This document shows, one piece after another, positions 7,291 to 33,255 of a stretch of DNA of 50,041 bases. Position 1 is the stretch's first letter. Every line of letters starts with the position of its first letter. The stretch comes from an uncultured Bacillota bacterium (GTDB lineage: Bacteria; Bacillota_I; Bacilli_A; RFN20; CAG-826): positions 1 through 50,041 of the forward strand of contig CASEWT010000004.1 in the NCBI GenBank assembly GCA_949291655.1, in the 5' to 3' direction. Made by a program: the position numbers and the translations under genes. Below the pieces are notes generated by a model. The model saw only the letters and a program-made list of their open reading frames with translations. It did no database searches and was not told the origin of the DNA.

Positions 7291-7317
7291 TTGTCACTGC
7301 GGGCAAAGACCTATACT
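7291..7317 (+). promoter_or_regulatory. Possible promoter of the GDPD-GH78 gene
   Basis: TTGTCA (7291-7296) and TATACT (7312-7317) lie upstream of a TAGGAG ribosome-binding site for ATG 7340. The 15-bp spacer is shorter than optimal, so confidence is limited. Confidence 0.35.
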
Positions 7318-7339
7318 AAAGGCGCTTAGGAGAAGCGTT

Positions 7340-12220: not shown

Positions 12221-12348
12221 CTTTAAACAACCTCCATTAGTAATTAGGCTTTTTTGATCGTTTTAATTCAAGACACTCAAAGAAATACAAAAGTAAGGGC
12301 TTACAAAAGAATCCGATAAAACCTGAAATTTAACATTTGTATGAGCAA

Positions 12349-12359
12349 TGAGCAAAAAT
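12349..12359 (-). promoter_or_regulatory. ATTTTTGCTCA motif upstream of the GDPD lipoprotein
   Basis: Read on the minus strand, this is ATTTTTGCTCA followed by a second TGCTCA. It resembles the ATTTTGCTCA half of the direct repeats at 13158-13206 upstream of the sugar operon. A shared site for the DeoR regulator encoded between them is inferred. Confidence 0.35.
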
Positions 12360-12368
12360 GCGCAAAAC

Positions 12369-13133
12369 CTAATCAGCGACTATGAGCTCGACGTTGGCTC
12401 TAAGCAGCGCCTCTTTGTAATCCTCGCTTGGCTCTTTGTCCGTAATGAGAACATCGATGTCGGCTATGGCGCAATCGCTTGAAAGAAGAGTGCGGTTGAA
12501 CTTCGTATGATCAACCAGGCAAACCAGCTTTCGGGCCCTGGAAGCCATCGCTGCTTTGACCCTTTGCTGCTCGATTGTTCCTTCGTTGGGGCCGGCTTCA
12601 AGTGAAAAACCGCGGCAAGAAAAGAAAAAGGCATCAACGTAAAAACGAGATACAAATTGAACGGTGTCAGGACCGACAGCCGAACAGACATTGCTCGAGA
12701 TGATTCCCGGGGCCATATATGAGGAAAAATTAACAAAATTTGATAAAGACGTGGCATTATCAAAGCCATTAGTTATTACAGTAATGTCAGTAAAATGTTT
12801 CAAAAGCGGGATTACTTGGCCAACAGTCGTAGACGAATCAAAGAAATAACTTTCGCCTTCGTGAAAATATTTAAGCGCTGATTGCGCAATTCTTTTCTTT
12901 TCGAGAACGTTCGTTTTTCGACGGATAAGAGTAGAAACTTCTCCGGTATTCGGAGCCAGCACGGATGCGCCCCCGCGAACCCTCTTAATCAGGCCGGCAT
13001 TAGCTAAATCAGCGAGGTCGCGTCGGATGGTTGCTGGCGAGGCATATACCAGCTTGGCAAGCTCTTCGACCGATATATAGGTTCTTTCGCTGGTGATGCT
13101 TAGGATCTCCTGTTTTCTTTCGTCGATTAACAT
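12369..13133 (-). CDS. DeoR-family transcriptional regulator of the rhamnose locus
   Basis: A 254-residue protein of typical DeoR length. The N-terminal winged helix is clear (RKQEILSITSERTYISVEEL, then SPATIRRDLADLANAGLIKRVRGGA), followed by the DeoR sensor domain: FFDSSTTVGQVIPLL, ITVITNG, FFSCRGFS and KLVCLVDHTKF. DeoR sensors are related to sugar-phosphate isomerases and usually bind a phosphorylated sugar. The gene is divergent from the SGNH/ABC/rhamnose operon, so it most likely controls that operon and perhaps the GDPD lipoprotein; rhamnulose-1-phosphate is a reasonable inducer, but this is inference. The base composition here is more A/T-rich than its neighbours. No clear SD precedes ATG 13133 beyond a weak purine stretch. 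Confidence 0.85.
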   Translation of the reverse strand: MLIDERKQEILSITSERTYISVEELAKLVYASPATIRRDLADLANAGLIKRVRGGASVLAPNTGEVSTLIRRKTNVLEKKRIAQSALKYFHEGESYFFDSSTTVGQVIPLLKHFTDITVITNGFDNATSLSNFVNFSSYMAPGIISSNVCSAVGPDTVQFVSRFYVDAFFFSCRGFSLEAGPNEGTIEQQRVKAAMASRARKLVCLVDHTKFNRTLLSSDCAIADIDVLITDKEPSEDYKEALLRANVELIVAD

Positions 13134-13264: not shown

Positions 13265-14557
13265 ATGTCATTTGGACGAAACAAAGCGTGGAAGGCTGGC
13301 AGTCTTGGACTAGTCCTAGCCTCGGCTGGTTTGGCTCTTGCCGCGTGTGAAACTACTACCGTCAGTTCTTCAAGCAATGCCGAGATTTCTTCGGAGAACG
13401 GACAGGTTTTTGATCCGAGTGACTTCCCTAATTACGTGGAAGATATTGATTCACTTGAATACGACTATGAGGTCAATGATCCGAAAGTGAGCGACCCGTT
13501 CTTTTACGGCAACGTTATTTACAACGAAACGGTCATGCTCCGTACCCAAGAAGATGGTACGGGCCTTGGGCATCTTCGCTTCACCCCGACCAAGATCATT
13601 TCCATTCGTGACTTCACTTTGACTACCGAATACACGGAAGGAAGCGACTACGTTATCGACGGAAATGCCATCAGCGCCCCAACCGGCAGCCGTATCGGCC
13701 ACTGGACCAATCGCCAGATGTGGGGCGAAGAGGACCTTCCTGATCCGTACGTTATCAAGGACACCTTGTCCAATCGCGATACCGATTGCATGAGGATGGG
13801 CGCGACGATCTACACGGAATCGCCTTTCTACTATGGCACGCAGGTATATGTCACCTACGCCTATGACATCAATGATCTTGATTTGGAATCGCTCCCTAGC
13901 TCCCAGATTGAGAAGATGCCAAGCCTTAAAGTCAAGCTTGAAGCCAAAGCCGGAACGATCAAGATTGCCGGCATCGGCGATAGTGTCATGGAAGGCTGCT
14001 CTTCGTCAGTCAATTTCGATCATGAACCCTATCAAAAACCATTCTTTGATCTATTTGGCGAAGCGATTGCGCATAAATACGGCCTTGAGGTGACTTCCGA
14101 AAACATGGGCGTGGGTGGAACGACGTCAGCCGACGGAACCCAAAAGTCCTTGCTCGACAAGGTGGTCAAATACGCTCCTGACCTCCTGCTTGTTCATTAT
14201 GGGATTAACGATCTCGGCGGTAGGACGACCCCAAACGGCTACATGGACAACATCCTTTACATCGTCACCTATCTCAAGGAGAACCTCCCCGATCTCGAAA
14301 TCATCCTCATGGCGCCTCTTTCCCCCAATCCCCGTGTCTATGACCAGATGTGGCTCGAGTCGTACGTCAACAAACTCGAAGACGTGGCGGAAAGCTTCAC
14401 CGGCGTCGTTGTCTTGGACACCTACGCCTACGGTAACTATCTCCTGGAAAACGGCCGGGACTATTACGACATGACCGGAAATGGCATCAACCATCCTAAC
14501 GATTATGGACACCGCGTTTACACCGGTGCCCTCCTCGCCACCATTGAAAATGCTTGA
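13265..14557 (+). CDS. Lipoprotein SGNH/GDSL-family esterase
   Basis: A 430-residue lipoprotein: lipobox LAAC with C28, an acidic/Ser-rich spacer, an N-terminal beta domain of ~190 residues, then an SGNH hydrolase domain. The four SGNH blocks are present: GIGDS with nucleophile S240, GVGGT, GIND with N315, and HPNDYGH with D413 and H416. These enzymes remove acyl groups, commonly acetyl esters, from polysaccharides at the cell surface. As the first gene of the operon with an ABC importer and rhamnosidases, deacetylation of the imported glycan before glycosidase attack is the likely role. Strong ACGGAGG ribosome-binding site; a cre-like palindrome and DeoR-type repeats lie upstream. Confidence 0.82.
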   Translation: MSFGRNKAWKAGSLGLVLASAGLALAACETTTVSSSSNAEISSENGQVFDPSDFPNYVEDIDSLEYDYEVNDPKVSDPFFYGNVIYNETVMLRTQEDGTGLGHLRFTPTKIISIRDFTLTTEYTEGSDYVIDGNAISAPTGSRIGHWTNRQMWGEEDLPDPYVIKDTLSNRDTDCMRMGATIYTESPFYYGTQVYVTYAYDINDLDLESLPSSQIEKMPSLKVKLEAKAGTIKIAGIGDSVMEGCSSSVNFDHEPYQKPFFDLFGEAIAHKYGLEVTSENMGVGGTTSADGTQKSLLDKVVKYAPDLLLVHYGINDLGGRTTPNGYMDNILYIVTYLKENLPDLEIILMAPLSPNPRVYDQMWLESYVNKLEDVAESFTGVVVLDTYAYGNYLLENGRDYYDMTGNGINHPNDYGHRVYTGALLATIENA

Positions 14558-14576
14558 TAAAGGAGGTTTTACCAAA

Positions 14577-15956
14577 ATGAAAGCAAGCAAGAAGAAAGTC
14601 GTGGTCGGAGGCTTACTAGCGGCCTTCGCCCTCACCGGGTGTGTCATTGCCCCGACCGTTGGAACGTCCTCGTCTGTCAGCATCGAGTCTGTCGAGATCG
14701 GTGTCGATCCTTCCATCAGTGAATCACTAAAGCTCCTTATCCCGTCGGGAAACAGCAACGAGCAGACGATGATTGAGAAAGCCAACGAGGCTTTCAACCT
14801 TCTTTATCCGAACGTCACCTTTGACATCAACTTCGTGTCAATCCCCACCTATGAGTCGACCATCCGTCAATTCAACATGGCCGACGACATGCCTGATGTC
14901 ATCTGGACTAACTCCCAGGAAGTCTACTTCCTCCGTTCTCTTGGCGCGATCGATCCTCTCAATCAGTACATCGAGCAGTCGGAAGCCCGCGGCGACTATA
15001 ACTTCGAAGAGGACTTCAAGACCGAGTTCTTCGACATGGCTGGCGATAACGGAACGTATTACGCCGTTCCGCGGAGCGCCGATACCGTCGTTTGCTTCTA
15101 TAACAAGAAACTCCTCAACCAAGCTGGGATCTCGATGGATAAGATCCAGAACGGTTGGAGTTGGGAAGACTTCATCGATCTTTGCTCCCAGTGGCGGTCC
15201 TATGCCGACAAGCAAGGCCACAGCGACTGGTATTGCTGCGACTTCAACTTCTCCTGGTCTTCTGTTTATTACCCGTTCATTCGCAGCTACGGTGCTGACA
15301 TCTTCTCGGCTAAGGATACCGTTGGTGTCGATACCCCGGAGATGAGAGAAGCACTAACGGCCATCCGCCAGCTCGTCGACGATCACTATTGCGTCGGCAG
15401 CGGCGTCACCTCGGGCTCGAGCTTCGAAAGCGGAACTTGCCCCTTCATTTTCCAGTCGGCCGCCATCTCTCACTATGACGAGATGCGCGAACTCAAGGGC
15501 AACATTGACATCGTCACCTTCCCGTTCATCAACGGCCAAGAGAACGCCAAGATCGGGGCTGGCGTCGCCGGTTATTCGCTCTGCACGAAGTCCAAGAAGA
15601 AAGCTCTCGCCTGGGAATATCTCAACTTCCTCATGAGCTATGATGGCCAGCAGGCTCTCGCCACCGGCGGTCTCAATCTCCCGTCCATTCGTAACGACCT
15701 TGCGGATCCCGATAACGCCGAAGCCAATTGGACGAAGGGCTACACCGATCGGAATCTCGAAGCCTATGTCCTATACGACGAGAAGAAAATCGCCGATGAT
15801 TATTATGCCTATTGCGATCCGAGTGCGATGGCTAATGTTACCCTCGCCCTCAGCGACGTGATGGATAACACGCTTTCGACCCGCGAAAATCGGCGCAACA
15901 TCGACGATATCATCTCTCGCGCCGTTAGCGACCTCAATGACGCCGTCGGCAAGTAA
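14577..15956 (+). CDS. ABC sugar transporter substrate-binding lipoprotein
   Basis: A 459-residue family 1 extracellular solute-binding protein. The signal peptide ends in a lipobox ALTGC (C22), followed by a Ser-rich linker. Family features include an early LLIPSGNS strand, DDMPDVIWTNS, 'YYAVPRSADTVVCFYNKKLL' typical of this family's YAVP...YYNKxLF region, NGWSWEDFIDLC and 'KKALAWEYLNFLMSYDGQQAL'. It captures an oligosaccharide for the two permeases that follow. The ATG 14577 has AAAGGAGG 11 nt upstream and begins 20 nt after the esterase stop. Specificity for rhamnose-containing oligosaccharides is inferred from the operon. No ABC ATPase is encoded here; a shared MsmK/MsiK-type ATPase elsewhere is expected. 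Confidence 0.88.
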   Translation: MKASKKKVVVGGLLAAFALTGCVIAPTVGTSSSVSIESVEIGVDPSISESLKLLIPSGNSNEQTMIEKANEAFNLLYPNVTFDINFVSIPTYESTIRQFNMADDMPDVIWTNSQEVYFLRSLGAIDPLNQYIEQSEARGDYNFEEDFKTEFFDMAGDNGTYYAVPRSADTVVCFYNKKLLNQAGISMDKIQNGWSWEDFIDLCSQWRSYADKQGHSDWYCCDFNFSWSSVYYPFIRSYGADIFSAKDTVGVDTPEMREALTAIRQLVDDHYCVGSGVTSGSSFESGTCPFIFQSAAISHYDEMRELKGNIDIVTFPFINGQENAKIGAGVAGYSLCTKSKKKALAWEYLNFLMSYDGQQALATGGLNLPSIRNDLADPDNAEANWTKGYTDRNLEAYVLYDEKKIADDYYAYCDPSAMANVTLALSDVMDNTLSTRENRRNIDDIISRAVSDLNDAVGK

Positions 15957-16005: not shown

Positions 16006-17007
16006 ATGTCAACTGTCGATGCAACGAAGGACAAGGCATCCTTTTGGTCCGGCCTCAAAGGGCGCATCGCGGAGATCCTCCCTGCCAAAAAAGGCAGGAA
16101 GGACCCCGGTTCGTTCCGCCCCAAGATGAGCCGGATGAAGAAAAAGGAAGCATTGGCCGGTTGGGTGTGCGTAACGCCCCTTCTAATCGGCTTGGCCCTC
16201 TTCACGGCCGTTCCGATGTTCTGTTCGCTCTTCTGGAGCTTCTTCCATTACGACGGATTCACGCTTTCGCCAGCCGGGTTCTGGAACTTCGTTCAGGCGT
16301 TCCAGGACCCCGAAGTCGGTGCTAGCGCCCTCAATACCTTCATTTATGCGATCGTCAACGTGCCGTTGAATTTGATCCTTAGCTATTTCTTGGCCTTGCT
16401 TGTGAACAATGCCCACAAATTCACCAGGGTCTTCCGGGTCCTCTTCTACCTCCCGGTTGTCATTCCGGCTGTTGTTAGCGGTCTTCTTTGGAAGGACATC
16501 TTCGACAATACCTATGGCATCTTCAACAAAATCCTCACCAGCATTGGCCTCGAACCGTTCCCCTTCTTCATGGATTCGAGAACGGCCATGTTCTCCCTCA
16601 TTCTCATGGGTCTATGGGGTGTCGGTGGCGGCATGATCCTCTGGCTCAGCGCTTTCAAGAACATCCCGAAGGACCTCTACGAATCCGCCAAGGTCGACGG
16701 AGCCAACGCTATCCAGCGTTTTGCCCACATAACCATTCCGATGTCGACCCCGATTATCTTCTTCAACCTTGTTACGAGCGTCATCGGCTCTCTCCAGTAC
16801 AACGGGACCCTCATCTTCGCCCCGCGTGACGGCCGAGGCATCGACGATTCCCTCTTCCTCTTCGGCGTCAAGATCTACTGGGAAGCCATCAGGGTCGGTG
16901 ACATCGGGTATGCCAGTGCCCTGAGCTGGATGCTTTGCATCGTTATCTCGCTCCTTACCGCCCTTCTCTTTACCACTTCGAAGTGGGTCTTCTACGGAGG
17001 CGATTGA
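16006..17007 (+). CDS. ABC sugar transporter permease (MalF/UgpA type)
   Basis: A 333-residue membrane protein with a ~45-residue basic cytoplasmic N-terminus and six transmembrane segments, the first being VCVTPLLIGLALFTAVPMF. The EAA loop that contacts the ABC ATPase is 'ESAKVDGANAIQRFAHITIP' near residues 226-245. It is the first of the permease pair and starts 49 nt after the solute-binding gene, with only a weak AGG before ATG 16006. It forms the import channel with the next gene product. Confidence 0.88.
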   Translation: MSTVDATKDKASFWSGLKGRIAEILPAKKGRKDPGSFRPKMSRMKKKEALAGWVCVTPLLIGLALFTAVPMFCSLFWSFFHYDGFTLSPAGFWNFVQAFQDPEVGASALNTFIYAIVNVPLNLILSYFLALLVNNAHKFTRVFRVLFYLPVVIPAVVSGLLWKDIFDNTYGIFNKILTSIGLEPFPFFMDSRTAMFSLILMGLWGVGGGMILWLSAFKNIPKDLYESAKVDGANAIQRFAHITIPMSTPIIFFNLVTSVIGSLQYNGTLIFAPRDGRGIDDSLFLFGVKIYWEAIRVGDIGYASALSWMLCIVISLLTALLFTTSKWVFYGGD

Positions 17008-17008: not shown

Positions 17009-17932
17009 ATGACTTGGAGCGAATTTAAAAATCGCCTGACCGGTGAGTCCTTCGTCGAGGATCGGAAGGCCAAAATCTGGGACTTTAGCAAGACGACCGC
17101 CCTCTTCGTGGGGATGTGCATCGTCGGGGTCGTTCTCATGTTCCCGTACATCTTCATGGTGTTCAAATCACTCATGTCGGAAGCGGAAATCCTTGACCCA
17201 AATCCCCATTTCTTCCCCGACTGGTCGAATCTCCAGTTCAGCAACTTCGTCACTCTCTTCACCGATGCGAGCTCCGGTTACAACTATGCCGAGGCGCTCC
17301 TCCATACGATGATCATCATCTGCTTCAACGTTGTTGCCATCCCCCTTTCTGCGACCTTTATCGCTTATGGTTTCTCCAAACTTAAGTGGAAGGGCAGAAA
17401 CATCGTCTTTGCCGCGATGATGCTAACGGTCACCCTCCCGGGTGTCGTCACCCAGATTCCGCTTTACGTCATCTACTCGAAGATCGGCTGGCTCAACACT
17501 CTTTACCCCTTCACCATCCCGAACCTCTTCGGCGGCGGTGCCATGTACATCTTCCTCATTAGGCAGTACATGTTCGGTATCCCGAACGAGCTATGCGACG
17601 CGGCTAAGATCGACGGCTGTGGGCCGTTCCGCATTTATTGGTCGGTCATTCTGCCCAATTGCAAGTCCATCATCATTTACATCATCATCTCCGTCTTCAA
17701 TTCCTATTGGGGCGACTACTACGGCCCGCTTCTTTACATGCCTGCCTCCGACGCTCCGATTCCATTCGCTTATGCCATTTTCAAGAGCACAGTCGAAGGT
17801 CTCGCCTCGACGCGGTGGGCCGCGGTAAGGATGGCAGGGGGAGTCTTCATGACTTTCTTCCCGACGCTTCTCTTCATCATCTTCCAAGAGCAGCTGACCG
17901 ACGGCGCCTTGACAAGCGGTATCAAGGGGTAA
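17009..17932 (+). CDS. ABC sugar transporter permease (MalG/UgpE type)
   Basis: A 307-residue permease with six transmembrane segments; the first is TALFVGMCIVGVVLMFPYIF. The EAA loop 'CDAAKIDGCGPFRIYWSVIL' is at about residues 197-216, followed by LPNCKS. It is separated from the MalF-type partner by a single base and would form the heterodimeric channel with it, delivering oligosaccharide to the cytoplasmic GH78 enzymes. The typical C-terminal 'GLTSGALKG' motif of MalG-like proteins is represented by GALTSGIKG. Confidence 0.88.
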   Translation: MTWSEFKNRLTGESFVEDRKAKIWDFSKTTALFVGMCIVGVVLMFPYIFMVFKSLMSEAEILDPNPHFFPDWSNLQFSNFVTLFTDASSGYNYAEALLHTMIIICFNVVAIPLSATFIAYGFSKLKWKGRNIVFAAMMLTVTLPGVVTQIPLYVIYSKIGWLNTLYPFTIPNLFGGGAMYIFLIRQYMFGIPNELCDAAKIDGCGPFRIYWSVILPNCKSIIIYIIISVFNSYWGDYYGPLLYMPASDAPIPFAYAIFKSTVEGLASTRWAAVRMAGGVFMTFFPTLLFIIFQEQLTDGALTSGIKG

Positions 17933-17936: not shown

Positions 17937-19799
17937 ATGGAATCAAAAATTAAGCAAATCGTATTGCCCGGGGCCTTCCTCCTCTCGCTTTGCCTTCTTG
18001 CTTCATGCGGCCCGAGCGAGGTTCCCGATCCTTATGAACGGGTCGAAGACGAACGGACGCTCACTGATGAGCAGTGGACCGTCAATAGTCTGGCTTCGAC
18101 CGATGCCTTCGGACGCTCATTCTCTTCTGTTTCGACTGCCAACCCATCCAAAGAAGTAGGCATCTTCTACTCCCTTTGGCACGGGTCGCACGAGACCGGA
18201 ATCTACGACGTCACCCTCCTCAAAGAAGTCAATCCCGATGCCCTTTGGGACGTTAGTAGCGGCAATGGGCAGCCAACCGACAGCCCTCTAGGGGCGTTCC
18301 ATTACTTCGGCCGCCCGCTCTATGGCTATTACGACAGTCGCGATCCTTGGGTTTTGACAAGGCATTGCGAACTTTTCGCAATGGCCGGCATCGACTACAT
18401 CGTCTTCGATACTACCAATAGCGTCATCTACACCGATGCCGTCAAAGCCTTGATCGAAGTCTTCCGGAAATACGCCGCCCAGGGCTTCGAGGTTCCGAAG
18501 CTGGCCTTCTATACCAATTCGCATAGCCAGATTACCGTCGACTCCCTCTATAGCATCTGGTACAAGGACGGGCTTTACGACGACGTCTGGTACAAAATCG
18601 ACGGCAAGCCGATGCTCGTCACCAACAAAGACGAGTTCACCGATTACGACAAACTCGACTTCTATGAAGAATTCTTCACTTTAAAGGGCAGCCAATGGCC
18701 CGATGAACGGATGAGAAAGGAGAACTTCCCTTGGATGAATTGGGAATGGCCCCAGTTCAACCACGACGGCATCATGTCCGTTTCCATCGCTCAGATGCCA
18801 GGCTACAACGCAGCAAACCAAGAGATTGGCAATTTCGGCCGCGGATACACTCGGGTCACCGAGGGATACAAGACCGGCGCTCAAAACGTCGACGAGTATC
18901 AAAAGGGACTGAACTTCGAAGAAGAGTGGCGGACAGCCCTCGACCCGGAGCTTTCTGGAGGAGAAGTCAACAATGTCTTCATTACTCAATGGAACGAGTG
19001 GATGGCCATCAAGAACCGCGCCAACAACGGCGACATGCAGATGGTCGACGGCTTTGATCTCGTTTATAGCCGCGATGCCGAAATGACGGATAGCGAAACT
19101 GGTTATGGAGACGGGTTTTACCTGCAACTCGCCCGTAACTTGCGCAAATTCGCCTATAACGACGGCGAGCATTACTTCCTCGATCCCCATACGATCGCCA
19201 TCGGCGAGAACGATAAGACCTGGGACGAGGTCAAGCATTCCTACCGCGATTTCCAAGGCGATGCCATGTTCCGAAACTTCAAAAACGCGGCGGGATCGCC
19301 TTCGGCCTACGGCTACGAAATGTACGAGGACCTGACGGCCCGCAATGACATCGTGTCCACCAAGGTTACCCACGACAACGACAACATCTATGTCCGGGTC
19401 GAAACCGCCGAAGAGCTTGTTTTGAGCAGCGGCGATGAAAGTTGGATGAACCTCTTCATCGGGACGCCCGACATCGATGGGCGGACTCCTTTTGCCGAAA
19501 CCTTCGATTACCGGATCATGCCGGACAGCACCGAAGGCAGCATGGCCATCGCCCGCTACGCCGAAACAGATAGCGGTGACAAGACCTGGGCGAAGACCGA
19601 TCAACGCGCCAAGGTGAGCTTTGACGGCAATGTGGTGGAATACCAAATCCCTCGTTCTGCCATTGGCGTTGGAAACCGGGTCCCGCACCTTCTTCTCAAG
19701 GCGACCGACCACCTGACCGACCCCCTGGACATCGACGACTTTTACGTGAGCGGCGATTCCGCTCCGATTGGGAGGCTCGCCTATGAATACGCCTACTAA
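17937..19799 (+). CDS. GH71/GH99-like glycosidase lipoprotein with C-terminal CBM9/DOMON-like domain (copy A)
   Basis: A 620-residue lipoprotein, lipobox LASC with C24. The N-terminal ~400 residues resemble the GH71/GH99-like clan of TIM-barrel proteins: VGIFYSLWHG, GRPLYGYYDSRDPWVL, AGIDYIVFDTTN and a strand ending WNEW (E354). In GH99 the motif is NEWxxE with two Glu residues; here the second is Ala, so the mechanism may differ. The C-terminal ~190 residues (ARNDIVSTKVTHDNDNIYVRVE) resemble a CBM9/DOMON sugar-binding domain. It likely attacks the imported glycan at the cell surface; substrate unknown. It follows the permease by 4 nt and the next gene, a paralogue, overlaps its end, showing a tandem duplication. 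Confidence 0.7.
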   Translation: MESKIKQIVLPGAFLLSLCLLASCGPSEVPDPYERVEDERTLTDEQWTVNSLASTDAFGRSFSSVSTANPSKEVGIFYSLWHGSHETGIYDVTLLKEVNPDALWDVSSGNGQPTDSPLGAFHYFGRPLYGYYDSRDPWVLTRHCELFAMAGIDYIVFDTTNSVIYTDAVKALIEVFRKYAAQGFEVPKLAFYTNSHSQITVDSLYSIWYKDGLYDDVWYKIDGKPMLVTNKDEFTDYDKLDFYEEFFTLKGSQWPDERMRKENFPWMNWEWPQFNHDGIMSVSIAQMPGYNAANQEIGNFGRGYTRVTEGYKTGAQNVDEYQKGLNFEEEWRTALDPELSGGEVNNVFITQWNEWMAIKNRANNGDMQMVDGFDLVYSRDAEMTDSETGYGDGFYLQLARNLRKFAYNDGEHYFLDPHTIAIGENDKTWDEVKHSYRDFQGDAMFRNFKNAAGSPSAYGYEMYEDLTARNDIVSTKVTHDNDNIYVRVETAEELVLSSGDESWMNLFIGTPDIDGRTPFAETFDYRIMPDSTEGSMAIARYAETDSGDKTWAKTDQRAKVSFDGNVVEYQIPRSAIGVGNRVPHLLLKATDHLTDPLDIDDFYVSGDSAPIGRLAYEYAY

Positions 19800-21702
19800 A
19801 GCCCTCTTCGCCTGCCTTTCCATCATGGTTCTTGCTTCTTGTGAATCGGGAGGATCTTCCAGCATGCCGACTTCTGAAAAGCTGAACGTCACCTACGATC
19901 AAGGCCTTCCGCTCGACGAGCGGCAGTTAACTGACGTCGAGTTCTCGCAGCTTCAGCTCGAGGGCATCGACGAGGTCGGGCGCAAGGTTCTGCCGATGGG
20001 TTCGTTCAAAGACGGTGAGCACCATGTCGGCCTCTTCTACCATATCTGGCTCGGCCAGCACGACTACGATTTCCGCGGCAATACCGGGCCGCGCGATATC
20101 GATAAGCTTCTTTCCACCGAGGAAGGGCGGGCCGCCCTTTATAGCGAGGACGATCCGATGTCCCCAAACGGCCGTTTCCATACCTGGGGCAAACCGCTTT
20201 ATGGCTATTACAATTCGGCCGACCCTTGGGTCATTAGGAAGCACCTCGAGCTTTTCGCGAACTGCGGAGTCGATTATCTCTGCTTTGATGCGACCAACAA
20301 CGTGATTTACCAGGATGTCGTTCCCAATATCCTGAACGCTATCCTCTATTACCAGGCCCAGGGCATTAAAGTTCCACAGGTCATGTTCTATACGAATACC
20401 GCCTCTGGCCAGACGGTACAGATGATCTTCAATGCCTACTACACCCATCCTGAATGGGAGAGCTGTTGGTGGGCGCCGAACGGCAAGCCTCGGATTGTCG
20501 GCATTACCGAAAACAACGGCAAAGCCAGCGACCAGACAATGTACGAGGGAAAAAACCCTGTCATGTCTGAAGACATGATTGCCTACTTCGACGTTCTTGA
20601 AAGCCAATGGCCGAACGGGATGTACAACGAGAACGGCCAACCCTGGATGAGTTGGAGCCGGGCACCTGGTGGCGCCATGTCGCAAGCGGGGATGACTTAT
20701 GGCTACCCCCAGAAAATCCATAACGGCCACATTGCCGTTCCGGTTGCCCAGCATAACCACGACCTTATCTGCTATTCCCTCGAAGGAGCCGAGTCGGCAC
20801 GGGGCTATAACCCGGAGACCGACAAGAAAGAGGGCGATTGGAAGGAAGGCCTGGCCTTCCAGAAGATGTTCGACACGGCTCTCGACCCCAACAACAAAGT
20901 GACCGACGTCTTCGTCACCGGCTGGAACGAGTGGCAGGCCATCAAGCAGTGGGACGGCACGAATATCGGCTACGGGGGCGACAAGGGCATCTACTTCGTC
21001 GATACCTGGAACCACGAATACAGCCGCGACCTTGAAATGATGGAAGGCGGCTATGGTGACAACTACTACATGCAGTTCGTCATGAATACCCGGGCCTACA
21101 AGATGAACGAATACGTCGAATACGCCCATGAGCGCAAGACGATCGACATCAACGACTTCTCCTCTTCGGCCTGGGACGGGATCACCCGTTCCTATGTCGA
21201 TCCGACCGGGGACTGTGAGGACCGCGACTTCATCGGCATTACCGTGCCGGCCTATTACACCGACCAATCGGGGCGCAACGACATTGCCTCCGTCCGGGTA
21301 ACCAACGATGGGAACAAGGCTTACTTCCGCATCGAATGCGCTAGCGACATCGAGCTTGGCAACAGCGGCGATGCCCTTACCCTCCTGCTCGGAAAAGAAG
21401 CGGACGGCAACGGCTTCATGGGCGCCTACGAGTACCGGATTGGCGCGCGTAAGGCTGACGGCAAAGCTTCGCTTGAGCGCTATGAGAACGGCACCTGGAC
21501 CGAAATTACTTCCGACATCGAATACGCCGTTGACGGAAGCGTGATGCAACTATCCGTTTCCTTGTCTCCATTGGGCCTTTCGGGCGACCGGGCCAGCTTC
21601 GTTTTCAAGGTATACGACAACGTAGCCGATCCCGACGATCCGATGAGTTACTACCAGAGCGGAGACGTCATGCCGCTAGGGCGGCTTGGCTACCGCTATT
21701 GA
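19783..21702 (+). CDS. GH71/GH99-like glycosidase lipoprotein with C-terminal CBM9/DOMON-like domain (copy B)
   Basis: A 639-residue paralogue of the preceding gene. ATG 19783 lies inside the end of copy A (overlap 17 bp) and has GGGAGG 7 nt upstream. The lipobox LASC gives C20. Matching landmarks are GLFYHIWLG, GKPLYGYYNSADPWVI, CGVDYLCFDATN and WNEW with E383; the residue three after E383 is again Ala rather than the second Glu of GH99. The C-terminal sugar-binding-like domain is present (RNDIASVRVTNDGNKAYFRIE). Copies A and B are clearly diverged rather than recent duplicates, so they may act on different linkages or ends of the same polymer. Enzyme activity is inferred. Confidence 0.7.
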   Translation: MNTPTKALFACLSIMVLASCESGGSSSMPTSEKLNVTYDQGLPLDERQLTDVEFSQLQLEGIDEVGRKVLPMGSFKDGEHHVGLFYHIWLGQHDYDFRGNTGPRDIDKLLSTEEGRAALYSEDDPMSPNGRFHTWGKPLYGYYNSADPWVIRKHLELFANCGVDYLCFDATNNVIYQDVVPNILNAILYYQAQGIKVPQVMFYTNTASGQTVQMIFNAYYTHPEWESCWWAPNGKPRIVGITENNGKASDQTMYEGKNPVMSEDMIAYFDVLESQWPNGMYNENGQPWMSWSRAPGGAMSQAGMTYGYPQKIHNGHIAVPVAQHNHDLICYSLEGAESARGYNPETDKKEGDWKEGLAFQKMFDTALDPNNKVTDVFVTGWNEWQAIKQWDGTNIGYGGDKGIYFVDTWNHEYSRDLEMMEGGYGDNYYMQFVMNTRAYKMNEYVEYAHERKTIDINDFSSSAWDGITRSYVDPTGDCEDRDFIGITVPAYYTDQSGRNDIASVRVTNDGNKAYFRIECASDIELGNSGDALTLLLGKEADGNGFMGAYEYRIGARKADGKASLERYENGTWTEITSDIEYAVDGSVMQLSVSLSPLGLSGDRASFVFKVYDNVADPDDPMSYYQSGDVMPLGRLGYRY

Positions 21703-21786: not shown

Positions 21787-24612
21787 ATGAAAGCGAACAA
21801 AAGACGACTCCTATTAGGAGCAGTCGCGTTGTTGGGCTTGGCGGCCGTTGGTGCCCCCGAGACGACGCCACTCGTGGCTTCCGCAGCTGACGTAGAAACG
21901 ACAGCGACTGTTTCAAACTACGACGTCATGTTTGGGGGCGGCGACTATGGCGATGCCGTTGCCATCAACATTGATACGACCGACGACTTTAGCGTTTGGT
22001 TCGCAGGCGGTGCAACTATTACCCCGGTAGCTCCCTACGCGACGATGTATGACGGATACGGCACTCCATCCGAAATCACGACGGGGGCCTATCCGTTTGG
22101 AAATAAGGTCCTCGTTTCCTTCAACAACATCAATAGATATGGCTCGATCCTCCATATCCCAGAAGGAGCCGGCTTTACTTCGAACATTTCGGGAAATACC
22201 TACAAGCTCGAGGAATCCTGGTGGGTCTGCGACCTCCCGAATGGCGAATTCGGCGCATGGCGCACCTTCGTGGCCCCGACCGCCCTCTCTTTCACGGAAG
22301 ACACCTTCGAACTCAAGGTTGGCCAAACGCTCGATCTCAGCGAACTCGTTGATATCGAAACCACCGACACTGATCCGGTCTTCGTCTATCAATCGAGCGA
22401 CGAGTCTAAGGTCGCTGTTACCAATGATGGTCTAATTACCGGCACTGGCGAAGGCACGGCGACGGTCACCGTCTATAGCGGCCTCCTCAAGGACACGATC
22501 GAAGTCGATGTGAAGGCCGGATCGCCGCAGACTGGCATCGCGATCGTCAATCTCGGCGAAGATAATGTCTATCAAACCTATGTCGGCGTCGAAAAGGACT
22601 TCAGCGACATCGAGGTCGTTTCGACATACGAAGACGGGTACACCGGATATGTCCCCTTCGATCCGTCCACTGACATCACCGGTACTTATGACTTCGATGT
22701 CGCCGGCGAATATCCGCTGACAATCACCATCGGCGAATTCTCGACAACCTTCACTCTCAAGGTCGAGCAAATCGACAAAGAGTTTGCGATGGACGCCTCC
22801 AATACGTTCGGAGCTACTGGCACCGTTCTCCAGTGGGGCATGAAGTTCGGCCTCATCATGAACGACGGTACCCAGAACATGAACCTCCGCGGAGAAGCGC
22901 TCGAAAACGTTCTCTCGCATGTCACGGTCAACGGCAGCCATGACGTCTTTACGAGCGTCAAGGTTCTAACGACCTACATGATGCTCGGAACCGATTCCAG
23001 CTTCACCGGCTGGAAGGTTGGCGACGTCGTTACCTTGACTCCGGGCCTCTATTCTTGGTCCTACACGGGAAGCATCAACCCCGCCTCGCAAGAGGTCAAT
23101 GGCGACGGCAACTGGGTTGCGACGAGCGTTTTGAAGCAAAACCTCTCCTTCATCTACAACGGAAAAGAATTCCTCGTTGCCGGCGTGGAGGTCAAAGACT
23201 TCGCGATCGAGTATGATGGCGGTCTCATGATCATGCCGGGGATGACGTATCATCCTTCCTTCACCTTCGATCCGATCACGAGCGCCGGCCTCCCGACCTT
23301 CGTCAGCAGCGATCCGACCAAACTCGCCGTCGATACCTATGGCAACGTGACGGCGGTCGAGGGCGCGACGGCTGGAAAGGCGACCATTACGGCTACCCTT
23401 GGCGAAATCGTCAAGACTTATGAATTCGACGTTACCGAGGTGATGGATATCAAAGGCGTCTCCCCGGTTGGCTACACCCATCAGGTCTATGTTGATCAAG
23501 ATCTCGACGAATGGGAATGGAACCCCGATTTCAACGGCTTCCAGATCATTTATGACGACGGAAGCGAAGAAGGCCTCCTCTTCCCGCTCGTCCATCCGAC
23601 CAATGAGTTCACTTGGACCGCGAGTCGCGATTTCGACCACAGCACGGTTGGCACGACCGAAACCTCGCTGACCGTCACCTACGAAGAAAAGCAGTACACC
23701 TGCACGATCCCGGTCGAAGTCTATGAGCTTTACGACCAGGAATACACAACCTGCTCTGTCGTCGGATGGTTCAGCTACTGGATGTTCGTCGATGCTCCCA
23801 ACACGGCCAGCAATGTTCCGAATATTGCCAGCACGGTCGGGACCGATTGGACCACCAAGTACATGAGGCCCTTCATCCATTACACGAGGGCGGATGGAAC
23901 GGAAGTTGGCATCAAAACCATCTACCAGCTTGGCCATAACACGGCTATCGAGCCGGAATTCCTCGCCACGCCGGGAATCAACGACTCCAACTTCAACAAA
24001 GGCCCCTACTACATGGAAGGCGACATCATCACCATCGATGCTGGCATGCCGATTCCGAAGTTCACCGGAAGCAAGGTGGGCAATGGCGATGACGCCATGG
24101 ACCTCACGACTGGGGAAATCGTAGTTGACGGATTCACGACCAAGACGACGCAGTTCCGCTTCGACGGCACGGCCTTCTCGGCCTACATGCCGGCCGACGG
24201 TCTGAAAGCCACGAAGGAAAGCATCGAGCTCAAGGTCGGGCAGAACGTCACGGCGGGCGTCGAGCGCACGCCGGAAGGTGCCACGACCGGAACCATCACC
24301 TACTCCTCCAGCAATGAAAGCGTCGCGACCGTCACCAGCGCCGGCATCGTCTCCGGCAAGGGCGCCGGAACCTGCACTATCACGGCCACCCTCACGGTGG
24401 ACGATGAGGTTATCGACACTGTCACCATCAACGTCACGGTAACGGCTGCTCAAACCTCCGAACCGACGACGAGTGAACCGACGACGGGCGAGCCGACCGA
24501 AGGACTTACCCCGGCGGCCATTGGCGGCATCGTTGGCGGATGCGTCGGCGGAGTCATTGTCATCGGACTCATTGTCTGGCTCATCATCTATCTCCGCAAA
24601 AAGAAAGCCTAA
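21787..24612 (+). CDS. Membrane-anchored surface protein with BIG2-type Ig-like repeats
   Basis: A 941-residue exported protein: a signal peptide (RRLLLGAVALLGLAAVGA) and a C-terminal hydrophobic anchor GGIVGGCVGGVIVIGLIVWL with a short RKKKA tail, preceded by a TSEPTTSEP-type Thr/Pro linker. There is no LPXTG. At least three BIG2-like repeats are visible: VFVYQSSDESKVAVTNDGLI, LPTFVSSDPTKLAVDTYGNV and ITYSSSNESVATVTSAGIV, each followed by a TATVT-type strand. Other segments (a bacterial Ig-like 'YPLTITIGEFSTTFTLKVEQ') are also beta-rich. A binding or scaffold role for the surface glycan enzymes is likely; no catalytic motif is seen. It sits in the operon between the lipoproteins and the rhamnosidase, after an 84-bp gap. 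Confidence 0.75.
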   Translation: MKANKRRLLLGAVALLGLAAVGAPETTPLVASAADVETTATVSNYDVMFGGGDYGDAVAINIDTTDDFSVWFAGGATITPVAPYATMYDGYGTPSEITTGAYPFGNKVLVSFNNINRYGSILHIPEGAGFTSNISGNTYKLEESWWVCDLPNGEFGAWRTFVAPTALSFTEDTFELKVGQTLDLSELVDIETTDTDPVFVYQSSDESKVAVTNDGLITGTGEGTATVTVYSGLLKDTIEVDVKAGSPQTGIAIVNLGEDNVYQTYVGVEKDFSDIEVVSTYEDGYTGYVPFDPSTDITGTYDFDVAGEYPLTITIGEFSTTFTLKVEQIDKEFAMDASNTFGATGTVLQWGMKFGLIMNDGTQNMNLRGEALENVLSHVTVNGSHDVFTSVKVLTTYMMLGTDSSFTGWKVGDVVTLTPGLYSWSYTGSINPASQEVNGDGNWVATSVLKQNLSFIYNGKEFLVAGVEVKDFAIEYDGGLMIMPGMTYHPSFTFDPITSAGLPTFVSSDPTKLAVDTYGNVTAVEGATAGKATITATLGEIVKTYEFDVTEVMDIKGVSPVGYTHQVYVDQDLDEWEWNPDFNGFQIIYDDGSEEGLLFPLVHPTNEFTWTASRDFDHSTVGTTETSLTVTYEEKQYTCTIPVEVYELYDQEYTTCSVVGWFSYWMFVDAPNTASNVPNIASTVGTDWTTKYMRPFIHYTRADGTEVGIKTIYQLGHNTAIEPEFLATPGINDSNFNKGPYYMEGDIITIDAGMPIPKFTGSKVGNGDDAMDLTTGEIVVDGFTTKTTQFRFDGTAFSAYMPADGLKATKESIELKVGQNVTAGVERTPEGATTGTITYSSSNESVATVTSAGIVSGKGAGTCTITATLTVDDEVIDTVTINVTVTAAQTSEPTTSEPTTGEPTEGLTPAAIGGIVGGCVGGVIVIGLIVWLIIYLRKKKA

Positions 24613-24644: not shown

Positions 24645-27092
24645 ATGATTAAGATTCTAAGTTTTGTCCTCGAAGGAAACCCCCTTCTCGCGAACCCGGC
24701 TCCTACCTTTGACTACGCCCTGGATGGCGACGAAGAGTTGGATGCTGCTGAGATCTCGATCGCGGGGCCTTCCCTTGAACAACCATCATCGACTATCGAA
24801 CGGGCTTACCGGGGGAGGATCTCCTATGGAGGTTCTCCTCTCCGGGCCCGGGAGGAATATGCCGCGACCTTGACGGTCAGGGGAAAGGGGGGAAGCGTTA
24901 GCGAAGCGACCACTCGCTTCCTCGTTGCCCCGACCGCGGCCGATTTCAAAGGCGGCTACATTGGGTGCGCCCTTCTATCCGACGGCCCCCTCTCCATCAG
25001 GAAGCGCCTCCCCGTACGCGAGGACGACCAATGTGTGAGGGCCGTGGCCTATGTCGCTGCCGTCGGCTATCACGAAATCTATCTGAGCGGACGGAAGGTT
25101 TCGTCCTCGATTCTCGCCCCCTCCCAGAGCAACTACGCGAAAAGAGTCTACTTTGAGGCCTATGATCTCCTTCCTTACATGAATGGGAAGGATGATGTCT
25201 TCGGCATTGTCCTGGCCAACGGCTGGTTCGGAAGCAAAGTCGCCAATATGTTCATCGAGCTTCGCTATGCTTCCGGGAAGAAAGAAGAAATCTATTCCAC
25301 TTGCAACGGCGATTGGTGGTTTGCCACATCGCCGATTACCGAATCCTCCATTTATGGTGGCGAAACGATTGACTATCGCCTTGGACAAGTCGGCGATTTC
25401 ACTCTTCCGAGCGTGGAACCCGGATATCGGAAAGGATGGTTCGGATCGATTTACGCCTACGGGCCATCGGGCGAGCTGCTCCCCGATCCGCTTCCGCCCA
25501 TCGAGGCCCACGGCCGTTACGACCTCAAGCCTATCAGGCGCGAAGGAAAGACGACAGTTTACGATGCCGGCTTTAATTTGGCTGGGCATGTCGTCCTTAA
25601 AGTCCGGGGCAAGGAAGGAACGCGGATCGTTCTAAAACATTCGGAAGCAATAGACGAGGAAGAAAACATCGATCAAACGAATCTAAGGAATGCCCGGCAG
25701 GAAGACATCTATTACCTCGCCGGAAAGGAAGAAGAAACGCTTTATCCGCACTTCACTTTCCATGGCTTCCGTTATGTCGAGATGACAATCGATGGAGATG
25801 CCGACATTCTTGAGGCCTATGCCGTTCATGTTCATTCGACCCTTCCCATGACCGGAAAAGTCGAAGTGGGGGAAGAGAAACTGCAGATCCTCCACGACAT
25901 CGCGGTCCGGACCGAAGAAAACAACGAACAAAGCGTACTGAGCGATTGTCCTCAGCGGGATGAACGGTTTGGCTGGCTTAATGACCTCTCCAGCCGTGTC
26001 ATTTACCTGAATTACGACTTCGATGCCTCCTCTTATCTTTACAAGGTTGCGGTCGATATCGCCGACACGGCCAACGCGAAAGGCGAAATCGCCGACACGG
26101 CTCCCTATTTCACCGGGGGCCAGCCGGCCGATACGACGACCGCCTCCTTCCTCTTGCTGGCCGACAAGCTGATTGACCTCTACGGGGAGAAGGAAAAGGC
26201 CGAGGCGGTCTATCCCTCCCTCAAGGCCTGGGTCGAGGCGCTTCTCGCCCGGAGCCACGATGGCTGCATGGATTATTACTACTACGCAGATTGGGTTCGC
26301 CCCGAGGGCCTTCCTTCGAAGCAAGCCAAGCCGGAAGTGGTCTCGAGCTTCTTCCTCTATTGGCATGTAGCTCTTCTAGCGAAAATCGCCGCAAAACTAG
26401 GCCATAAGAAAGACAATTCCCACTATTCTTCGCTTCTAAGGAAGTTGAAGATGCTTCAAAGGAAGGCCTATCTCAAGGATGGCCTCTTCGGAAACGGCTC
26501 GGTCACCGAGACGGCAACGGCCCTCGAACTCGGCCTCTACGAGGAAGAAGAAAGAGAGGCTGCCTATTCCCACATGAAGGATCTCATCGCTTTGGATGGG
26601 ACCCATCTCAACTGCGGGAACCAAGGCTACCGCTTCGCCTTCTACGAACTCTGCCGGCACGGGGATATCGATTTGGCCTTTGCCATCTTGCGGAACCCGG
26701 AGTACCCGGGCTGGGGCTACATGCTGGCCAACGGAGCGACGAGCGTCTGGGAGCGTTGGGAGAAAGCGGTGCTGGCCACCATGAACTCCTTCGATCACCC
26801 GATGTTCGCTTGTTACGACGCGCTCTTCTACCGCTTCCTGGCCGGGATCGAAATCACCGACATCGAGGAAGGGAAGGGGCTCTTCGACCCTGCCCCCTTG
26901 GAAGAGAACATCCCCTTCCGCGTCTCCTACAAGACCCGGAAGGGAACCATCGAGGTTTCCTCGAAGGGGGTCGAAGACGGAACGCGGTCCTACGAGATCG
27001 ACGTTCCTTACGGACTCGTCCTCTATGTGCCTTCCCTCAGGAAGGAACTAGGGGCCGGCCATCATCAATTGGTGTTCCATGTTTCTAAATAG
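24645..27092 (+). CDS. GH78 alpha-L-rhamnosidase (cytoplasmic)
   Basis: An 815-residue GH78 protein without signal peptide. After N-terminal beta domains (a rhamnosidase N-domain and 'VRAVAYVAAVGYHEIYLSG' jelly-roll region), the six-hairpin catalytic domain carries DCPQRDERFGW (D434, E440) with D447, and SVWERWE with E703, the four conserved acids of the family. 'HSTLPMTGKVE' and 'YGGETIDYRLGQ' are also family landmarks. It hydrolyses terminal alpha-L-rhamnose from imported oligosaccharides and feeds the isomerase just downstream. Length is slightly shorter than many GH78 enzymes (~900). Separated by 32 nt from the surface-protein gene and by 30 nt from rhaA, with AAAGGAGG for rhaA in the latter gap. 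Confidence 0.9.
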   Translation: MIKILSFVLEGNPLLANPAPTFDYALDGDEELDAAEISIAGPSLEQPSSTIERAYRGRISYGGSPLRAREEYAATLTVRGKGGSVSEATTRFLVAPTAADFKGGYIGCALLSDGPLSIRKRLPVREDDQCVRAVAYVAAVGYHEIYLSGRKVSSSILAPSQSNYAKRVYFEAYDLLPYMNGKDDVFGIVLANGWFGSKVANMFIELRYASGKKEEIYSTCNGDWWFATSPITESSIYGGETIDYRLGQVGDFTLPSVEPGYRKGWFGSIYAYGPSGELLPDPLPPIEAHGRYDLKPIRREGKTTVYDAGFNLAGHVVLKVRGKEGTRIVLKHSEAIDEEENIDQTNLRNARQEDIYYLAGKEEETLYPHFTFHGFRYVEMTIDGDADILEAYAVHVHSTLPMTGKVEVGEEKLQILHDIAVRTEENNEQSVLSDCPQRDERFGWLNDLSSRVIYLNYDFDASSYLYKVAVDIADTANAKGEIADTAPYFTGGQPADTTTASFLLLADKLIDLYGEKEKAEAVYPSLKAWVEALLARSHDGCMDYYYYADWVRPEGLPSKQAKPEVVSSFFLYWHVALLAKIAAKLGHKKDNSHYSSLLRKLKMLQRKAYLKDGLFGNGSVTETATALELGLYEEEEREAAYSHMKDLIALDGTHLNCGNQGYRFAFYELCRHGDIDLAFAILRNPEYPGWGYMLANGATSVWERWEKAVLATMNSFDHPMFACYDALFYRFLAGIEITDIEEGKGLFDPAPLEENIPFRVSYKTRKGTIEVSSKGVEDGTRSYEIDVPYGLVLYVPSLRKELGAGHHQLVFHVSK

Positions 27093-28391: not shown

Positions 28392-29204
28392 ATGGGAAAC
28401 ATTCTTGAGTGCCGTTCGATCGGCCAATATCTCTCCATCATCGACAACATGTACCGCCTCGGATGGGACGAGCGGAACGGCGGGAACGTCTCAATGCTCC
28501 TCTCCGCGGAAGAGGTCGCCTCCTACGTCCCGAAGGAGACCATCCGGGATATTCCCCTCCCGATCGTCGCCGACGAAATCCTCCGGGGCAGGACCCTAGC
28601 CATCACCCGGACCGGCGGCTATTTCCGGAACACCAAAGGCGATCCCCGCCATAACGTCGGCATCATCACCATCTCCGACGACGGGCGGAGCGCCCACCTC
28701 CATTGGGGCTTCGAGGGCGAGGGCTCCTTCACGAGCGAAGTCTATGCCCACCTCATGTGCCATGCGACCCGCCTCAAGGTCAACCCGCGGAACCGGGTCG
28801 TCATGCACACCCACCCGACGAACCTCTTGACCCTCACCCACCTCGTGAAGCTTGACGAGAAGGAACTCACCTTGGCCCTCTGGCGGACGATGACCGAGTC
28901 GATCGTCGTCTTCCCCGAAGGGGTAGGGGTCCTTCCCTGGATGCTTTGCGGGACCAACGAGATCGGCGTCGCGACGGCCGAGAAGATGAAGGAATTTCGG
29001 GTCGTCGTCTGGTCGCTCCACGGGGTCTACGGCTCCGGGGAAACGATCGACGAGGCGTTCGGCCTCATCGAGACCGTCGAGAAGGCCGCCCAGATCATGA
29101 TGGGCGAGCTCGGGCACAAGGTGCTCAACGACATCGACGACGAGGGGCTGAAGGCCATCGCCGACCACTTCGGCCTCGTTCCCCATCCTGGCTACCTCAA
29201 ATGA
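28392..29204 (+). CDS. rhaD: Rhamnulose-1-phosphate aldolase
   Basis: A 270-residue class II aldolase. Zinc ligands H139, H141 (VVMHTHPTN) and H210 (SLHGVYG) match E. coli RhaD H141/H143/H212 shifted by two; the N-terminal 'WDERNGGNVSMLL' is the phosphate-binding GGN region. It cleaves L-rhamnulose-1-phosphate to dihydroxyacetone phosphate and L-lactaldehyde; the latter is the substrate of FucO encoded at the left of the window. GAAGGAA precedes ATG 28392. Its stop overlaps rhaB start (ATGA). Confidence 0.95.
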   Translation: MGNILECRSIGQYLSIIDNMYRLGWDERNGGNVSMLLSAEEVASYVPKETIRDIPLPIVADEILRGRTLAITRTGGYFRNTKGDPRHNVGIITISDDGRSAHLHWGFEGEGSFTSEVYAHLMCHATRLKVNPRNRVVMHTHPTNLLTLTHLVKLDEKELTLALWRTMTESIVVFPEGVGVLPWMLCGTNEIGVATAEKMKEFRVVVWSLHGVYGSGETIDEAFGLIETVEKAAQIMMGELGHKVLNDIDDEGLKAIADHFGLVPHPGYLK

Positions 29205-30508
29205 AACGCTACGAAGCGGCCCTCGATATCGGCGCCACTTCGGGACGGCTTCTCCTCTCCTCCCTTTCGGAGGAAGGGAAGCGGAGCCTGGAGGAGGTCC
29301 ATCGCTTCAAGACGCCGCTCGTCGACGACGGGGAAGGGCACTGCCATTGGGACGTCGACGCCCTTTTTGCGGAAATCATCGCCGGACTTCGGAAGTGCCA
29401 CGATCTCGGTAAGGAGCCTTACATCCTTGGCATCGATTCCTTCGGGGTCGATTATGCCCTCCTTGACGGGAGCGGAGGTCTCATCGGGGACGTCGTCTCC
29501 TACCGCGACAGCCGGACCCGCGGGGTCAAGGAACGCTTCCTGACCCCCTCCCGCCTCTTTGAGCTGACCGGCATCCAGCCGATGGAGTTCAATAGCGTCT
29601 ACCAACTCTTCCTCGATCAGGAAAGCGGAAAACTTTCAAAGGCCGAGGGCTTTCTCTTCTTCCCTTGTTATCTCGCCTACCTCCTTACCGGAAAGAAGGC
29701 AAACGAACTCTCGATCGCCTCGACCTCGGGGCTTCTTGTTCCCGGCGGTCCGGCTTTTGAGGAAGAGATCCTCTCTAGGCTCGGGCTTACTCCTTCCTTC
29801 TTCTACGAGGTGGTCGAAGCCGGGACAACCATCGGCCGCCTCAAGCCGGAAATCGAAGAAGAGGTCGGCTTCGACCTCGAGGTCCGGACCGCCCTTTCCC
29901 ACGATACGGCCGCGGCCTTCCTCGGCTCCTTGGGCAAGGAGGGCGAGGTCCTCATCTCCTCGGGAACATGGTCCCTCATCGGGATCCTTGCCTCCCGGCC
30001 CTGCCTTTCCAAGGAGGCTTTCGAGAAAGGCTTTTCCAACGAGCTTTCGCGCTTTGGGGAAGTCCGTTTCCTCAAGAACATCTCCGGCATGTGGATGGCC
30101 AACCGCCTGAAAGCCGAGCTGCTCCCCGAAGAGCCGATCGCCAAGGCCGTTGAACGGGCTCGGGAAAGTTCCTACCCCGGGCATTTCGACCCGACGGCGG
30201 AAGAGCTCATGAATCCCCCTTCGATGAAAGAGGCCCTCGACGCCCTTCTCGAAAAGGGCGGCTATCCCCGTCCCGCCTCCCCAGGGGACTACTTCAAGGC
30301 CGTCTACGTTTCCCTTGCCAAGGAATACGCCCGAAGTGTCGAGGAGCTTTCCCGCCTGGCTTCCTTCTCCCCGCGGGGGATAAGGATCTTCGGCGGCGGG
30401 AGCAAGAACCTCTACCTCAATGAACTCACGGCCCTTGAAAGCCGCCTCCCGGTCTTCACCGGCCCGAGCGAAGCGACGGGGCTCGGGAACGTCCTTTCGA
30501 TCATCTAA
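29201..30508 (+). CDS. rhaB: Rhamnulokinase
   Basis: A 435-residue FGGY-family kinase opening with ALDIGATSGRLLL, the phosphate-1 motif. SFGVDYALLDGSGGLIGDVVSYRDSR, GIQPMEFNSVYQL and SSGTWSLIGI are RhaB landmarks, and the C-terminal IFGGGSKNLYLN is the adenosine-binding motif. It phosphorylates L-rhamnulose at O-1 with ATP. ATG 29201 overlaps the rhaD stop by 4 bp, so the start inside the rhaD end is preferred over any upstream start. It is the last gene of the operon; a strong terminator follows within 10 nt. Kinase length is about 50 residues short of E. coli RhaB, which is common among Firmicutes enzymes. Confidence 0.94.
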   Translation: MKRYEAALDIGATSGRLLLSSLSEEGKRSLEEVHRFKTPLVDDGEGHCHWDVDALFAEIIAGLRKCHDLGKEPYILGIDSFGVDYALLDGSGGLIGDVVSYRDSRTRGVKERFLTPSRLFELTGIQPMEFNSVYQLFLDQESGKLSKAEGFLFFPCYLAYLLTGKKANELSIASTSGLLVPGGPAFEEEILSRLGLTPSFFYEVVEAGTTIGRLKPEIEEEVGFDLEVRTALSHDTAAAFLGSLGKEGEVLISSGTWSLIGILASRPCLSKEAFEKGFSNELSRFGEVRFLKNISGMWMANRLKAELLPEEPIAKAVERARESSYPGHFDPTAEELMNPPSMKEALDALLEKGGYPRPASPGDYFKAVYVSLAKEYARSVEELSRLASFSPRGIRIFGGGSKNLYLNELTALESRLPVFTGPSEATGLGNVLSII

Positions 30509-33059: not shown

Positions 33060-33072
33060 CTAAATTTTGAAG

Positions 33073-33163: not shown

Positions 33164-33172
33164 GTGCGACGT

Positions 33173-33245: not shown

Positions 33246-33255
33246 CCCTCGTCGG

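Follow-up and report, generated by a model that had tools for sequence, protein, structure and literature searches.

Two tandem genes in an uncultured member of the Bacillota, on contig CASEWT010000004.1 (assembly GCA_949291655.1), encode paralogous proteins, GHA and GHB, that by modelled fold and a retained acidic residue belong to the GH71/GH99 superfamily of glycoside hydrolases, yet by dyad and score belong to neither family. The stretch analysed, hereafter the window, comprises the first 50,041 nucleotides of the contig. Both proteins keep the first acid of the dyad (E354 in GHA, E383 in GHB) and carry alanine in place of the second, and both have a conserved SRDxE motif in the following loop. 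We hold it an even call that they are extracellular, membrane-anchored glycoside hydrolases of an unnamed GH71/GH99-type family, in which E354/E383 would work with a carboxylate from the SRDxE loop on a rhamnose-containing glycan. Somewhat more tentatively, we propose a new glycoside hydrolase family acting on rhamnose-bearing glycans, with the second catalytic Glu swapped for the loop carboxylate, which would add a third way of arranging catalysis on this fold to the 1,2-anhydro route of GH99 and the inverting one of GH71. Newness is judged here against Pfam, NCBIfam and PDB folds, and the family may already carry a CAZy number.

GHA and GHB (Table 1) are 37% identical over their whole length, the C-terminal domain included. 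The start of GHB is the ATG at 19783, preceded 7 bases upstream by GGGAGG, and not the TTG at 19768. By hydropathy analysis, both N-termini have a hydrophobic stretch ending in L-A-S-C, which, following the lipobox rule, we take to be a lipoprotein signal. An earlier note on this DNA had placed tandem lipoproteins at 17937-21702, each with a NEW motif and Ala three residues beyond its Glu; both genes lie there with their lipoboxes, and the residue numbering agrees, NEW beginning at residue 353 in GHA and 382 in GHB and the alanines being A357 and A386. Against an assembly or frame error stand the open frames, the ribosome-binding sites and the fact that eight further genomes of the taxonomic family have this tandem arrangement too.

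The AlphaFold2 model of mature GHA, built with 109 aligned sequences, has a mean predicted local distance difference test score (pLDDT) of 95.6 and a predicted template modelling score of 0.95. A Foldseek search of the PDB with this model ranked GH99 and GH71 structures first (GH99 at E 2.5e-7). VIA-align gave GH99 a Z of 18.9, with a root-mean-square deviation (rmsd) of 3.6 over 257 residues, and GH71 a Z of 13.8 to 15.3, with the next unrelated fold at 11.2; for the barrel, no listed family besides these two stands out. Because PDB searches with GHA and GHB individually returned chance matches only, a profile was needed, and the sequence profile of 109 relatives matched GH99 chains exclusively (best E 3.7e-7). 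In the profile alignment, the N-E-W-x-A of the family lies on N332-E333-W334-H335-E336 of BxGH99, with E354 on E333 and the alanine on E336. In 6fwo, the E336Q variant of BxGH99, the mutated Gln falls opposite the family Ala, and the numbering fits the variant names. The same alignment pairs D158 with T124, T160 with W126 (two residues past T124) and N161 with N127. The likeness to GH71 and GH99 and the loss of the second dyad Glu from both proteins, as the earlier note had them, are thus borne out by the fold ranking and by the alignment.

The C-terminal domain of GHA, modelled separately, has a mean pLDDT of 95.0. Compared with CBM74, CBM9 and related domains it reaches Z values from 12.6 down to 9.2, with unrelated rows at 6.7 or below. 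Against the CBM9 structure 1i82 it gives Z 10.0 and rmsd 4.2 over 156 residues, that is, a CBM9-like beta-sandwich. At E <= 0.01 the Pfam model CBM9_1 (PF06452) matches 3 of 84 members, GHA not among them. The C-terminal domain that the earlier note described as shared and sugar-binding-like is therefore shared by sequence, and in GHA sugar-binding-like by modelled fold.

Database models place the pair in no named family. No Pfam model fits GHA or GHB at E <= 10, and at that threshold neither matches PF16317 (GH99), PF03659 (GH71), PF14307 (WbsX) or DUF5010 (presumably PF16402); GH71, GH99 and DUF5010 are the models that the earlier note had proposed for comparison. No NCBIfam model above its cut-off fits either protein, nor was a fitting one found for eight relatives and the deep relative L105. 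Searches with 22 family members gave matches to ten Pfam families at E <= 1, neither WbsX nor DUF5010 being among the ten, and relatives score at most 24.0 bits against PF16317, whose cut-off is 33 bits. GHA and GHB have E-x-x-A where GH71 has D-x-x-E. The suggestion of a new glycosidase family stands in so far as the pair has the GH71/GH99 fold and lies outside known Pfam and NCBIfam families; glycosidase activity is a prediction.

The missing dyad acid is a trait of the whole family, as judged from aligned sequences, rather than a peculiarity of GHA and GHB. PMC12394665 gives the dyad of GH71 and GH99 as D/E-x-x-E, with D-x-x-E as the GH71 version, and PMC11025385 describes EW[H/G]E as conserved across GH99 of all domains of life. 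In an alignment of 109 rows (109 blastp hits, less two fragments, plus GHA and GHB), residue 354 is Glu in every row; residue 357 is Ala in 107, Val in one, Asn in one and Asp or Glu in none, a count biased by the pattern scan of genome contigs that supplied most of these relatives, since one of its two patterns contained NEWxA. The fragments left out were L057:2-691, which does not cover the motif region, and L063:11114-13090, which is cut by a contig end and reads NEWIA. Whole-length profile searches of 224, 392, 148 and 296 genomes gave matches in 11, 5, 9 and 9 of them, some partial and some in genomes counted twice. These yielded 58 distinct rows, 17 of which were set aside for want of one of the two loops (among them dyad-keeping relatives, sandwich-only matches and L126, a frame-broken copy reading NEWIA). 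All 41 that remained, GHA and GHB included, have Glu354 and Ala357; the profiles were built from family members and so show the interior of the family, not all GH99 relatives. The relatives with the same Ala rule out an active site that has merely decayed locally, in this one genome.

The family is large, with at least 575 encoding stretches among the at least 587 pattern matches listed from the genome collection. One Paenibacillaceae genome (G702) holds nine members (loci L111, L119, L123, L127, L131, L133 and L135-L137), several of them in open frames of 800 to 1,200 amino acids (aa). A single relative was found on viral contigs; L023:253-3612, on a 46-kb IMG/VR contig of phage or host sequence, is a family member (NEWIA, SRDAE) fused to a Cu_amine_oxidN1 domain. 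Plasmid records held no relative of the Paenibacillus member L069 at E <= 1e-5. Literature searches found no description of this E-x-x-A family, which does not exclude that one exists.

Five weak-scoring relatives outside the family keep the acidic pair: L129 (NEYAE), L130 (NEFAE), L142 (NEWSE), L134 (NDHAE) and L145 (NDFGE). Two of them, L134 and L145, exceed the Pfam GH99 cut-off, and none of the five has SRDxE. Within the family, D371, R379, D380, E382 and D392 are invariant in the 109 rows and S378 is Ser in 107. Among the 41 profile-found sequences, E382 is present in all and D380 is Asp in 40; the exception, L117:1342-4689, has Gly there (SRGIE) and is the sole one without SRDxE or a near form. 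In the secondary structure of the model the motif follows the final barrel strand (346-352) and precedes the final barrel helix (393-406). Its loop would be equivalent to the one that joins strand 8 to helix 8 in GH71 and that forms one of the cleft walls there (PMC12394665). D158, the last residue of a predicted strand, is likewise invariant, in 109/109 and 41/41.

Active glycosidases in which D158, at the end of its barrel strand, partners E354 in place of the SRDxE loop would account for this invariance and for the position of D158 opposite BxGH99 T124, two before W126. However, the DxTN motif that holds D158 is also found in L129, L130, L134 and L142, all dyad-keeping, which suggests an older and different role, and we judge a D158 partner improbable. 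Since DxTN occurs in dyad-keeping relatives too, it is SRDxE whose presence goes along with the replacement of Glu by Ala. Most likely D380 and/or E382 would bring a second carboxylate into the cleft. The earlier note had the loss of the acid right; the conserved loop, which it did not mention, is a strong candidate replacement. A glycoside phosphorylase or transglycosidase could manage with one carboxylate, phosphate or a sugar replacing water and being bound by R379 and K/R359. One carboxylate is indeed lost, R379 never varies, and position 359 holds Lys in 82/109 and Arg in 20/109; GHA and GHB, however, are predicted lipoproteins outside the cell, where phosphorylases are unusual, and this explanation seems to us very improbable.

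The pair arose by a single old duplication and has been kept in fixed order, because a maximum-likelihood tree of the 109 sequences sorts 14 tandem loci into one group made up of their first genes and another made up of their second (support 99). Each of the two gene-order groups requires one change on the tree, a value as low as which was reached in 0 of 500 shuffles. A recent local duplication is ruled out, the first and second genes falling in separate old groups. The fixed-order pair is present in Bacilli, in Mollicutes-labelled genomes and in Clostridia, and Bacteroidota relatives (Parapedobacter, Niabella and others) sit nearest the GHB group. An old duplication kept in order suggests two different tasks for GHA and GHB.

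The genes around the pair are conserved as well. The order GDSL esterase, solute-binding protein, two permeases, GHA, GHB recurs in 13 other named loci and is unbroken in 11 of them by crude gene calls; in L025 and L036 one block gene is hidden by a longer frame. A GH78 gene follows the pair in 10 of the 13, and the remaining three contigs end first. More broadly, GH78 lies within the fetched stretch in 21 of 77 loci, including those of Parapedobacter, Niabella and Paenibacillus. A GH78-type domain occurs in 11/11 genomes of the taxonomic family that have genes of the GHA/GHB kind versus 58/213 that do not (Fisher p 1.3e-6), and inside the genus in 9/9 versus 7/27 (p 1.2e-4), both tests ignoring shared ancestry; in 9 of the 11 genomes the domain is at most 9 kb from these genes. 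Nine of the 13 loci (L027, at 11598-12833; L028, L029, L031, L032, L033, L036, L042 and L067) have a further lipoprotein after GHB, about 410 to 450 aa long (truncated in L031), which is missing from the window and its closest relatives. In L027 it has a weak alpha/beta hydrolase match (E 8.8e-6), which again points to an esterified substrate. A Pfam tally of 131 of the 133 listed family neighbours (two L093 genes were excluded because of their length) revealed no other partner that dominates besides those already identified through the window's own genes.

Table 1. Features of the window bearing on GHA, GHB and the surrounding gene block
Feature	Position	Strand	Description or basis
DeoR-type regulator, divergent	12369..13133	-	domain match
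GDSL esterase, predicted lipoprotein	13265..14557	+	domain match; hydropathy
Sugar ABC solute-binding protein	14481..15956	+	true start probably downstream of listed one
Sugar ABC permease 1	16006..17007	+	Pfam/NCBIfam match
Sugar ABC permease 2	17009..17932	+	Pfam/NCBIfam match
GHA	17937..19799	+	predicted lipoprotein of 620 aa; LASC lipobox in signal peptide; barrel resembling GH71/GH99; CBM9-like domain at C-terminus
GHA D158, invariant Asp at barrel-strand end (DxTN), common to dyad-keeping relatives	18408..18410	+	model; alignment
GHA E354, retained first dyad acid	18996..18998	+	aligned to BxGH99 E333
GHA A357, second dyad Glu position	19005..19007	+	aligned to BxGH99 E336
GHA SRDAE, residues 378-382, family-specific loop, candidate source of second carboxylate	19068..19082	+	alignment; model secondary structure
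GHA C-terminal domain, CBM74/CBM9-like beta-sandwich	19149..19796	+	model and fold comparison
GHB	19783..21702	+	paralogous predicted lipoprotein, 639 aa; ATG start; 17-base overlap with GHA end
GHB E383, retained first dyad acid	20929..20931	+	pairwise comparison
GHB A386, second dyad Glu position	20938..20940	+	pairwise comparison
GHB SRDLE, residues 414-418	21022..21036	+	alignment
Surface protein, Big_2/Big_3 Ig-like domains, C-terminal membrane anchor	21787..24612	+	domain match; hydropathy
GH78 alpha-L-rhamnosidase	24645..27092	+	domain match; no signal peptide seen
L-rhamnose isomerase RhaA	27123..28382	+	domain match
Class II aldolase (RhaD-like)	28392..29204	+	domain match
FGGY sugar kinase (rhamnulokinase-like)	28946..30508	+	true start downstream of listed one

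Apart from GHA and GHB, the block encodes no glycosidase-like protein predicted to be extracellular, and hydropathy showed no signal peptide on the GH78 enzyme, the isomerase or the aldolase. In the pathway we propose, whose inverting or retaining chemistry is likewise a matter of inference, GHA and GHB would act at the cell surface, beside the lipoprotein esterase, and cleave a rhamnose-containing glycan that carries ester groups, with E354/E383 as the first dyad acid and D380 and/or E382 of the R-D-x-E in the following loop supplying the second carboxylate. The released oligosaccharides would be taken up through the neighbouring ABC importer and trimmed inside the cell by GH78, and the rhamnose so freed would pass to RhaA, the kinase and the aldolase. 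A scan for promoters returned fewer sites than in shuffles.

The link to rhamnose is real for the branch to which GHA and GHB belong but does not extend to the family as a whole. The tie to rhamnose glycans drawn in the earlier note survives to that extent, through the GH78 rhamnosidase and the genes of rhamnose catabolism. It is a serious possibility, if short of an even one, that the bond cut is not in a rhamnose backbone and that the rhamnose genes only strip side sugars, a substrate compatible with the proposed E354/SRDxE mechanism. Members in Planctomycetota, Omnitrophota and several clostridial clusters without GH78 favour such a substrate; against it stands the branch of GHA and GHB, where GH78 is a conserved neighbour and co-occurs with the pair.

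Several points weigh against active enzymes that pair E354 with the SRDxE loop on a rhamnose glycan. D158 is as invariant as the loop and could serve instead, and L117 argues against an indispensable D380, though not against E382. The genomes G060 and G182 have the genes with no neighbouring GH78, which is also missing from the vicinity of the genes in the omnitrophote G571 and from the whole of the planctomycete genome G570. The members found here are glycosidases by prediction only, and loss of the dyad acid could simply mean loss of hydrolysis. GHA and GHB would then be catalytically dead surface glycan-binding proteins whose barrel cleft holds glycan for the importer, in keeping with a second Glu missing in 109/109 and 41/41, a C-terminal domain resembling carbohydrate-binding modules and an adjoining solute-binding protein. 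Yet eleven polar residues, E354 among them, do not vary across the 109 relatives from several phyla, unlike the usual drift of dead enzymes, no other product of the block is a predicted extracellular glycosidase, and one genome maintains nine copies. We consider dead binders unlikely.

Other features of the window and its relatives were noted in passing. A single gene at 7217-10321 (+) joins a glycerophosphodiester phosphodiesterase domain (58-254) to a partial GH78-like six-hairpin domain (639-814). The GH78-like match recurs in long frames of G203, G211 and G201, at a distance of 8 to 9 kb from the pair, and in G213 in a frame of 784 aa that is 7 kb away. The 1919-aa frame at 36628-42387 (+) has a domain composition like that of defence genes, with DUF4011, a helicase (AAA_11/AAA_12) and a nuclease (MTES_1575). 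The tRNA-Ser (cga) at 33073-33163 (-) overlaps the start of the listed frame 33067-35028, whose true start is probably downstream and which has no Pfam match at E <= 0.001.

Among known systems, the CBM9/CBM74 modules (1i82, 7nwn and Sas6 7uww) share the C-terminal fold of GHA; the likeness is one of fold, ligand residues aside, and extends to CBM9_1 by sequence in only the three members mentioned. The GH99/GH71/WbsX-like relatives L129, L130, L134, L142 and L145 have the same strand-loop plan, with DxTN or DWYG at the place of D158, but a complete dyad (NExxE or NDxxE) without SRDxE. The GH71 alpha-1,3-glucanases (AnGH71C, Agn1p; PF03659) show the same fold, a barrel followed by a beta-sandwich, but have D-x-x-E in place of E-x-x-A (PMC12394665) and an FnIII-like sandwich in place of the CBM9/CBM74-like one of GHA. 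Closest are the GH99 endo-alpha-1,2-mannosidases and mannanases (BxGH99, BtGH99, MANEA; PF16317), which have the same barrel, are the sole PDB family matched by the profile, and align E333 with E354 and the Asp of the SSxD stretch with D136. The family differs from GH99 in having Ala for E336 and Thr for W126, in its SRDxE loop and C-terminal CBM9-like domain, and in scoring below the Pfam cut-off. GH99 and GH71 share one dyad, yet work by different mechanisms. If our reading is correct, this third branch, which is large and lacks the second Glu, would be an example of a catalytic acid moving within the barrel. Hundreds of surface proteins from gut and soil bacteria that now lack annotation would gain a function open to testing, and there would be an indication that Gram-positive gut bacteria carry out one step in using rhamnose-containing glycans outside the cell.

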